DNA of 64,000 nt from Bacteroidales bacterium (GTDB taxonomy: Bacteria > Bacteroidota > Bacteroidia > Bacteroidales > UBA3663): assembly GCA_017561935.1 (NCBI GenBank), contig JAFZBE010000042.1:62001-126000 (forward strand), given 5' to 3'. The position numbers and the translations under genes were made by a program. Positions within the stretch are counted from its first letter, which is position 1. Every line of letters starts with the position of its first letter. The notes under the pieces are model-generated. The model was not told the DNA's origin. It did no database searches and worked only from the letters and a program-made list of their open reading frames with translations. Shown here one piece after another: positions 34,686 to 46,283 of the stretch.

Positions 34686-34824
34686 CACTTTTGGCTCTTT
34701 TTTCCCTTTTTTGAGTATTTTTTGTTTTTGATTTGCCCAAACAATCATTTTCAAGGGGGAAATTGAGTGTTTTCTATCCATTTATTCGTTTAGTATTGCG
34801 ATTATTTCTATGTCAATCGTGTCG

Positions 34825-35186
34825 GTCCAATTCACTAACGTAAATTGGACATTTCCAATCGCGTGCGTCCAATTCACAATCGTAAATTGGACGTTTCCAA
34901 TCGCGCGCGTCCAATTCCCGATTGTAAAATGGACGTTTCCAATCGCGCGCGTCCAATTCCCGATCGTAAATTGGACATTTCCAATCGTGCGCGTCCAATT
35001 CCCGATCGTAAATTGGACATTTCCAATCGCGTGCGTCCAATTCACAATCGTAAATTGGACATTTCCAATCGTGCGCGTCCAATTCCCGATCGTAAAATGG
35101 ACATTTCCAATCGTGAGTGTCCAATTCCCGATCGTAAATTGGACGTTTCCAATCGTGAGTGTCCAATTCACTAACGTAAATTGGAC
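34825..35186. repeat. Nine-copy array of 26-bp palindromes with 42-bp period
   Basis: Eight complete 42-bp units and a final 26-bp half unit start at 34825, 34867, 34909, 34951, 34993, 35035, 35077, 35119 and 35161. Each begins GTCCAATT and closes AAATTGGAC or AAATGGAC, so it can form an 8-bp hairpin. The 16-bp linkers follow RTTTCCAATCGYGNGY. The first and last palindromes are identical. It fills most of the gap between two divergent promoters and ends 22 bp before the -33 box of pgeF. No other feature was seen in 34686-35207. Confidence 0.95.
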
Positions 35187-35207
35187 ATGAGATTTTTCCA
35201 CTTTTTC

Positions 35208-35257: not shown

Positions 35258-35980
35258 ATGATAAAGACAGAAAATGAGAGAGGAAGTATCTTGCAGTCAC
35301 AGCTTCTCAATCAGCAAACGGGAATTGAGCATTTCTGTTCGACACGCGACTGTAAGAACCCAGGTCGAGGTATATGGATGCCACAGCAGGTGCATGGCAC
35401 AACGATTGTGGTGGTCGATGCCAAAACGCCGATGGATATGAACCTGGAGCGACAACCTGTGGATGCTGATGCCGTGATCACTCGTGAGAAAGGGATGTGG
35501 ATTGGTGTGCATACCGCCGATTGCGTGCCGATATTGCTCTACGACACACAACAGATGATTGTTGCTGCCGTTCATGCCGGTTGGCGTGGAACAGTACAGC
35601 ATATCGTGCGTTTGACATTGCAGAAGATGCATGATAAAATGGGAAGTGCGATGCCGGATGTGATGGCGATGATCGGACCGAGTATCAGTCCTGAGGCATA
35701 CGAGGTGGGTGAGGATGTCGCTGAAGCTTTTGTGAGCGCTGGACGAGGAGATTGTGTGCTGCGAGCTATCTGGGGACCTAATGGGAAACAACTGCTTTCA
35801 AAGCCGCATATCGACCTGTGGCAAAGCAATGTGATGGATATGATTGAAGCAGGAATCGATCTCCAACATATAGATTGTACGCCTTGGTGTACATTCGAGC
35901 ATTATAAAGAGATCTATTCAGCACGGAGAGAAGGAATTGGGACGGGAAGAATCGTTTCAGCCATCCGTTTGAAACGTTAA
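35258..35980 (+). CDS. pgeF: PgeF/YfiH-type multicopper-oxidase-like protein (peptidoglycan editing factor)
   Basis: 240 residues from the ATG 20 bp after the promoter. It carries MPQQVHGTTI near residue 42, DADAVIT, GVHTADCVPILLYD near 82 and VHAGWRGT near 107: the His/Cys zinc site of the DUF152/laccase-domain family. E. coli YfiH edits peptidoglycan by removing wrong residues from muropeptide precursors, and related enzymes act as purine nucleoside phosphorylases. Length and motifs are typical. Its promoter is bordered by the 42-bp palindrome array. Confidence 0.9.
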   Translation: MIKTENERGSILQSQLLNQQTGIEHFCSTRDCKNPGRGIWMPQQVHGTTIVVVDAKTPMDMNLERQPVDADAVITREKGMWIGVHTADCVPILLYDTQQMIVAAVHAGWRGTVQHIVRLTLQKMHDKMGSAMPDVMAMIGPSISPEAYEVGEDVAEAFVSAGRGDCVLRAIWGPNGKQLLSKPHIDLWQSNVMDMIEAGIDLQHIDCTPWCTFEHYKEIYSARREGIGTGRIVSAIRLKR

Positions 35981-36088: not shown

Positions 36089-36121
36089 TTTGGGATGAAT
36101 AGAAAAAAAGTCTTATCTTTG
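36089..36121 (+). promoter_or_regulatory. Promoter of a candidate small RNA
   Basis: TTTG at 36089-36092, 21-bp spacer, TATCTTTG at 36114-36121. No coding sequence follows on this strand. Confidence 0.65.
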
Positions 36122-36127
36122 CACCGT

Positions 36128-36192
36128 GTTTTTCATGGTATTAGATTTAAGGTTAACGGAAGAAGGACGTCGTGAGATGGCCTTCTTTTTTT
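36128..36192 (+). ncRNA. Candidate small RNA of about 65 nt
   Basis: Begins just after a good promoter and ends in a hairpin (36160-36166 with 36181-36187) and a run of seven T. The only gene to the right (DUF5686 protein) is on the other strand, so this transcript has no coding partner. The 5' part contains ATTAGATTTAAGGTTAAC, which I associate from memory with recurrent short Bacteroidales transcripts. The Rfam family is not assigned. Confidence 0.5.
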
Positions 36193-36221
36193 CGTTTTGC
36201 CTGATAAGTAATTTTTTGTGA

Positions 36222-38432
36222 TTAGATGTGCCGACCGATTTCGATGCGCAGCTTGAAGCCGAAGTCATAGTATTTCGCATCCTTGAAGCCCACAAAGAAT
36301 CCGACGTTCAGGTAATTGTTGTCGATGCCATAACCTAATTCGTGGAAGAGGCTGTGTCCTTCGGTCCATAATGCGCCGAGGTAGATGCGCTCCTTGATGA
36401 TAAAGCGCGAGAGCGGATGCAGCAAGTGGAGAATTCCAAATGGTGTCTCATGCATGATGTGTCCTTGTATATAGCTTGGGGAAGAGGCGTACCAGTAGTC
36501 ATCGAGGAGGTGGAACGTTCCGCCAATGCGGTCGTCCTCCCATACGGTGGGATAATTGCTGCGCTTGAAGTAGCGGTAGTTGATGAAGTATTCGCCCTTC
36601 TGGTTGAAGAACTTGCCCATGCCGAAATGATAGGAGAGGAACCTGGTGCGCTCGAGCCTGATGTTTTGTTGTATGTCGAACTCCATCCTGCCGTAGTTGC
36701 CGTCGGTGCCAAATGCGCCGGGGATGGCCCGCGCAATCTCGAAGGCCATGGTCGGTGATGGGCTGTGGACATATTCCTTGTATCCGTCCTTATACCAGTA
36801 GTATTGTCGAGGTGTCCATTCGAGACGAATGTAGGGCGCAAAATCGGAATAATAGGTGTCGATGAGTTCGTCGAGACGCTCCTTCGAAATCTTTCTCATA
36901 CCATGACGTACGGGATTGCGGTAAGTGAATAACGCACCCGTATGCAACATCAGTCCGTTTCGGATTTCAATGCTATGCAACAAATCGAATTCGTAGCGTT
37001 TGTAGTACTCGATGCCGAGAGAATCGAAATTGATGTTCTTGGCATTCTGAGACTTCAGCGCTTCGTTGACCGTGCGGATAAATTTATTGGAGAAGGTGGA
37101 ATTGGTGCGATAGATTTCGAAAGTCCAGCGTCCACGCCTTTTGGGAGAATAGGTCCATTCGGAGAATAGGCGATAGCGAAGTTCCCGCAGACGGAAGGCA
37201 TAGCCCAGTTCTCCGCGCATGAAGAGTTCGGTATCGTTTTTGAGGCGTTTGGTCCATCGCGCCCGTTCTCTGAAAGTAAAGCCATTGAATTTGTCATAAC
37301 CCAGATAGGAAGGATCGAGTGGGCCATAGATGCGCAGACGGTTGTCTTCTGGACCGATACGTGTGCCATCGAACAACGTCTCGGAAAACTCCTCCAACCC
37401 ACGGTAGATCTTCCGCTTCTTTCGGTGAGAAGTCGGTTTCGGACGAGTGGATTTGATCAGCGAATCGACATGTGTGGGGATTGGTATGGGACGCAGCATG
37501 TCGAAATCCATTTCTTCGATTTTCTCCTCCCTATAGAACCGCGTCAGGTCGAGCGGGATATTGTTTTGGTCGATGCTGTCGAACGGAGTGAAATCCTTGT
37601 AATTATATGTGGTGCTGTAATTGTTCTGTGCGTGTGTGTTGAGGATATGGTAACGAATGCTCAATACGCTGTTGCTGGGTACAATGATATTGTCGTGCAA
37701 CGAATCGGGGGCATAGTGAATGGTCGTCTGAAATTTTGCCCAGTTGATTCTGCCACTACATTTGAGGCCAAGGACATTGAGTGTCTTCTTGTCGATCAGC
37801 ACATTACCGGTGAGGAGGGTGTGATGAAAATGCTTCGGCTTGAAACTTATGAGGCATAGATCCATCGTGTCGGGGTTGATTCCTGCTTCCCTCAATTGTG
37901 TGTATGTGCTGTCGTGGACGGAAAGTTGCTCGAATCGATAGCGCTTGAATCCTTGGTCATAGAAAGGAAGGACAAAAGAGCGGACGCTGCCGTAGTCGCC
38001 ATGATGCTTGATGGCATAGGCGGGCAGCATGCCTTCGTAGAGACGTTCCATCACGTTACGGGCCTTCCGATAGTCGTTGGATTTCAGCCCGACGGTGTTG
38101 AGATGCATGTCGCCAGGCCATTGATAGTGCACATGGCTCATGGCCTCGAAACCGAGGTCTTCGTACGTATGAGCTTGGAAGGGTACCAGATGGGGGATCA
38201 GTCGGGCAACAAGGCCACGTCGGATGCAATGTGAGGTGCCGGTGGTGTATGTCCTGAGATCCAGGAAGCCTAATTCGAGGTCCTTTTGCTTGAGCGCTCT
38301 TTCTCCAAGACGCATCAGGAGGGTGTCGAATGCAGAGGCAGGTCTGTCGTTCGGCATAACGTATTGCGCCATCGCTGTTGGGGCGGTGGCGATCAGATAG
38401 AGTAACGTTATGATGAGCGTGAAATGCCTCAT
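36222..38432 (-). CDS. DUF5686 family outer membrane protein
   Basis: 736 residues with a signal peptide (cleavage after AMAQ). The N-terminal half includes [24 protein letters not shown], a fingerprint of the DUF5686 family in Bacteroidetes; the C-terminal half is rich in strand patterns ([43 protein letters not shown]) and ends as an outer membrane barrel would. Many family members carry an N-terminal carboxypeptidase-regulatory-like domain, but none is obvious here. Role unknown. It starts within the rsgA stop codon (ATGA overlap), so it is translationally coupled to it. Confidence 0.75.
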
Positions 38433-46140: not shown

Positions 46141-46230
46141 GTAGGGGTTAGGAGGGGTTAAGAGGGGTTAAGAGGGGTTAAGAGGGGTTAAGAGGGGTTA
46201 GGAGGGGTTAGGAGGGGTTAAGAGGGGGGT
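46141..46230 (+). repeat. G-rich 10-bp tandem repeat
   Basis: Eight 10-bp units of the form RRAGGGGTTA (AGGGGTTA core), then a run of six G. The regular GGGG runs on the plus strand satisfy the pattern needed for G-quadruplexes. It lies just upstream of tatD in the direction of that gene. Confidence 0.9.
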
Positions 46231-46241
46231 GTGGGACAAAC

Positions 46242-46279
46242 AACCATTCGAACCATTCTTAACCATTCGAACCTTTCTT
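46242..46279 (+). repeat. AACCATTCG-type direct repeat
   Basis: Four units, AACCATTCG, AACCATTCTT, AACCATTCG and AACCTTTCTT, follow the G-rich array. The unit is like the in-frame repeat at 6652-6696. Confidence 0.75.
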
Positions 46280-46283
46280 AACT

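Follow-up and report, generated by a model that had tools for sequence, protein, structure and literature searches.

The segment 36126-36194 on the forward strand of the window, i.e., of the whole 64-kb stretch of DNA analysed, is very probably a gene for the small RNA FopS with the mechanism of action proposed below. FopS itself is already known, and the window unit is an intact copy of it; relative to the published description, as far as the main text of PMC11697453 goes, the only new point is the absence of the RRM-1 protein from this rumen lineage, which appears to retain FopS without RbpB. The locus comprises the following features.

36089..36092, forward strand: -33 element TTTG of a Bacteroidetes (sigma-ABfr type) promoter, read from the sequence
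36114..36121, forward strand: -7 element TATCTTTG, with the box TAnnTTTG starting at -12 in 26/26 copies and invariant in four orthologous loci
36126..36194, forward strand: FopS small RNA, matching RF04319 with 69.2 bits (model positions 1-71 of 71, cut-off 56)
36126..36156, forward strand: single-stranded 5' seed block GTGTTTTTCATGGTATTAGATTTAAGGTTAA, with 0/31 mismatches to the consensus and unpaired in the predicted fold
36158..36192, forward strand: Rho-independent terminator (hairpin 36158-36189, T7 run 36186-36192), from the predicted fold and compensatory changes

When the whole window was scanned against Rfam, RF04319 (BTncRNA_FopS) was the only hit; its E value of 4.9e-8 over the 64 kb is far beyond chance. 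The first 31 nt of the window copy equal the FopS model consensus, and by homology this block is taken to contain the published R1' seed. A score above the cut-off, a 5' seed block with R1', a canonical Bacteroidetes promoter and multiple copies per genome, all of which characterize FopS, are found here, and the structural side of the assignment is backed by the fold of the window copy and an alignment of 17 copies. An earlier sequence-only reading of this DNA had described a short unit lacking a coding sequence, a candidate RNA, with a promoter (TTTG-21-TATCTTTG) and a downstream hairpin and T7 run, with the next gene on the other strand; these elements are present as described, and the full-length family match bears out the RNA.

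The spacer between TTTG and TATCTTTG measures 21 nt, and inspection of the sequence places the putative start at the G in position 36126; the transcript probably ends near 36192. The unit would be noncoding and about 67 nt long (65-70 nt expected for the transcript). The predicted fold of the terminator hairpin has an energy of -15 kcal/mol, which by itself is unremarkable (z -1.28). Upstream, a forward-strand Cu-oxidase_4 (polyphenol oxidoreductase) gene ends at 35980; downstream, a reverse-strand gene for a DUF5686 protein ends at 36222. A scan for E. coli-type promoters and terminators missed the FopS unit, and shuffled sequences yielded about one site of each kind; the miss is expected because the promoter is of the Bacteroidetes type.

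Tandem repeats were also observed in the window. An array with a period of 42 bp (34814-35188; 8.9 copies, 90% match) occupies the intergenic stretch directly preceding the Cu-oxidase_4 gene. Because several reading frames stay open in it on either strand, long spurious ORFs appear. The ten-base repeat AGGGGTTAAG occupies 46143-46227 (8.5 copies, 96% match); after it comes another repeat, of 19 bp, at 46242-46282.

The source genome (3.34 Mb in 69 contigs, 77% complete) contains three FopS copies that exceed the cut-off and a further one that, at 54.2 bits, narrowly misses it, and all of the other genomes of the genus (14/14) have FopS, with one to six matches each. The 5' block, which had been thought to recur in Bacteroidales, is indeed common to FopS copies; the 18-nt block singled out earlier has no second exact copy in the genome, and the two copies that differ from it at 3 positions both lie in FopS paralogs. 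The DUF5686 gene next to FopS led to relatives that comprise Bacteroidales MAGs, sampled from the rumen or omasum of water buffalo and from reindeer, as well as other RUG-series isolates. Three relatives retain the same FopS copy beside the DUF5686 gene, and in the alignment of these four orthologous loci (window plus three) TATCTTTGCACC and the RNA through the T run are invariant, while both flanks vary. The copies with the fixed -12 box come from many genomes and retain the 5' block, and TTTG or TTG is found at a similar distance upstream in most copies examined; the fixed box fits transcription beginning at the first base of the model.

Weak FopS-like matches of 26-27 bits were observed in the source genome at C60:42522-42604 (L008) and C57:80410-80482 (L009). 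The former retains the promoter box and a GTGTTTTTCATGGTAAT start, with the rest of the block lost, and may be a FopS copy that has decayed or diverged. Clusters of three copies within 1-2 kb in other genomes (G006:C21:13486-15356; G055:C1:231216-232458) suggest local duplication. An exact search for the 31-nt block in viral contigs found none and therefore lends no support to phage carriage.

Among known RNA families, GibS (RF04182), a related small RNA with two seeds, has the R1-type 5' block in common with the window unit, which reached 38.6 bits with the GibS model in a permissive scan of the locus. This score is, however, far below the GibS cut-off of 115, the 3' half of GibS is absent from the window unit, and the unit carries the canonical promoter that PMC11697453 assigns to FopS, not to GibS; we regard GibS as highly improbable. 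Bacteroidales-1 (RF01693), which the sequence-only reading had named as a family to consider, that being the only point in its favour, stayed unmatched in a 501-bp search with a limit as loose as E<=1, in which FopS and GibS were both listed, and its probability is negligible. Further genomic copies and an Rfam match, whose absence would have spoken against that reading, both exist, the match being to RF04319. A very small protein gene would start with the ATG at 36135 and consist of the 28-codon frame MVLDLRLTEEGRREMAFFFSFCLISNFL, which is open in the window copy. One paralog group of the genus, however, carries GGTATAAG, i.e., a stop at codon 3, other copies are frameshifted, and frame lengths vary from 2 to more than 40 codons. 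The 28-codon frame also traverses the terminator hairpin, and only 9 nt precede its ATG, where a ribosome-binding site is absent. Changes in the hairpin stem are compensatory: in the 17-copy alignment, four of the six consensus pairs are changed on both sides with pairing kept, one of the pairs being C-G in 9 copies and U-A in 8. Small ORFs were excluded for B. thetaiotaomicron FopS, according to PMC11697453. From the sequences compared, a small protein is a very unlikely product of the window unit.

A different question is whether the main target of FopS RNA is the convergent DUF5686 mRNA, on which it would act either as a 3' antisense RNA or through a shared terminator. Only about 28 bp separate the end of the RNA from the stop codon of DUF5686, and the convergent arrangement is retained in the three related loci. 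The conserved seed is, however, also present in copies elsewhere, e.g., after a pyrimidine-biosynthesis-like operon, and at one locus (L055) this copy has the other orientation and is about 1 kb away from the DUF5686 gene; such a main role is very improbable.

Regulation of SusC-like mRNAs is the role described for FopS in B. thetaiotaomicron. According to PMC11697453, the extended seed R1' pairs there with the start regions of susC-like mRNAs and of other first genes of polysaccharide utilization operons, the pairing inhibits translation of the targets, the RRM protein RbpB binds FopS and relieves the inhibition, and the FopS level rises with bile salts. In the source genome, a housekeeping Bacteroidetes promoter would, judging from the sequence, drive an RNA whose 5' seed is unpaired and whose 3' end forms a terminator. 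By homology, the targets of the seed would be mRNAs that encode exported SusC-like glycan transporters, and pairing in their start regions would block translation, as in the experiment, which was done in B. thetaiotaomicron only. Given the absence of the gene, FopS in this genus probably has no RRM-1 RbpB as its partner, or acts via another chaperone.

The complement of the 5' end of the window copy reads ...ACC AUG AAA AAC AC, i.e., it contains a start codon and then the opening typical of a signal peptide. Pairing was predicted for 29 SusC-family start regions of the genome and for the genes of the window, with start codons assigned heuristically. For the SusC start regions, the excess in predicted pairing was slight and lends weak support to such targeting: the mean energy with the seed was -13.7 kcal/mol, compared with -12.3 kcal/mol for shuffled seeds, and 1.5% of shuffles were as low; for the 35 other start regions in the window, 26.5% of shuffles were as low, i.e., no clear excess. 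At the level of single genes, only 2/29 SusC start regions had z < -2 (per-gene z, uncorrected for multiple genes, with heuristic start codons), the best one (L064) reaching -18.9 kcal/mol (z -3.3, uncorrected). A genome search for long complements of the seed returned mostly FopS genes and, besides these, one site with 3 mismatches and one weak FopS-like match. At C15:18231-18249 of the source genome (L060), ATATTATCATGAAAAACAC complements the 5' end of FopS apart from 3 mismatches and lies upstream of an integrase-like reading frame; it is possibly a target or a FopS remnant.

The presence of RbpB in genomes was assessed via its RRM_1 domain (PF00076). This domain was found in 0/15 genomes of the genus (the source genome and 14 relatives, 63-90% complete), whereas in Bacteroides ihuae and in 31 of 60 genomes sampled the search did detect it, and a protein query (an RRM protein from another Bacteroidales genome) gave only two chance-level hits in the genus (E 0.36); assembly gaps are an unlikely cause of this result. 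Because the RRM_1 gene is absent, the published FopS-RbpB circuit is incomplete in the source genome. In a wider sample of 296 Bacteroidales genomes, 60 carried FopS (E<=1e-6), 33 of them with RRM_1 and 27 without, and several family-level groups of carriers uniformly lacked the domain. RRM_1 was not more frequent in FopS carriers (33/60) than in the others (165/236), counts that ignore kinship. The 31-nt block is equally perfect in the RRM-lacking L013, L014, L017 and source genome and in the RRM-bearing L012, L015 and L018. Because the block is perfect in RRM-lacking genomes too, RbpB binding cannot alone preserve it, and RbpB is probably not the sole reason for the retention of FopS. The outlook in PMC11697453 assumes co-conservation of the two across Bacteroidaceae; the sampled order Bacteroidales has exceptions to it. 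The chances are about even that FopS regulation is independent of RbpB in whole Bacteroidales lineages, being either chaperone-free or served by another RNA-binding protein; if this is true, RbpB antagonism in B. thetaiotaomicron would be an added layer and not the core of the FopS system.

Compared with known systems, no likeness to Bacteroidales-1 was found, whereas GibS resembles the window unit in its R1-like 5' block and differs in its greater length, its second seed R2 and its other promoter type. The closest likeness is to B. thetaiotaomicron FopS (RF04319; PMC11697453), in the 5' seed block, the single-stranded 5' part, the terminator hairpin, the canonical promoter, the length of about 65-70 nt and the several paralogs per genome. 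Differences lie in the copy number, about four here versus 12-15 in the Bacteroides species that PMC11697453 names, and in the RRM-1 protein, which was undetected in this genus. FopS, known from human gut Bacteroides, is now placed in a rumen Bacteroidales genus, and natural FopS lineages without detectable RRM-1 offer a way to separate the action of FopS from the contribution of RbpB.
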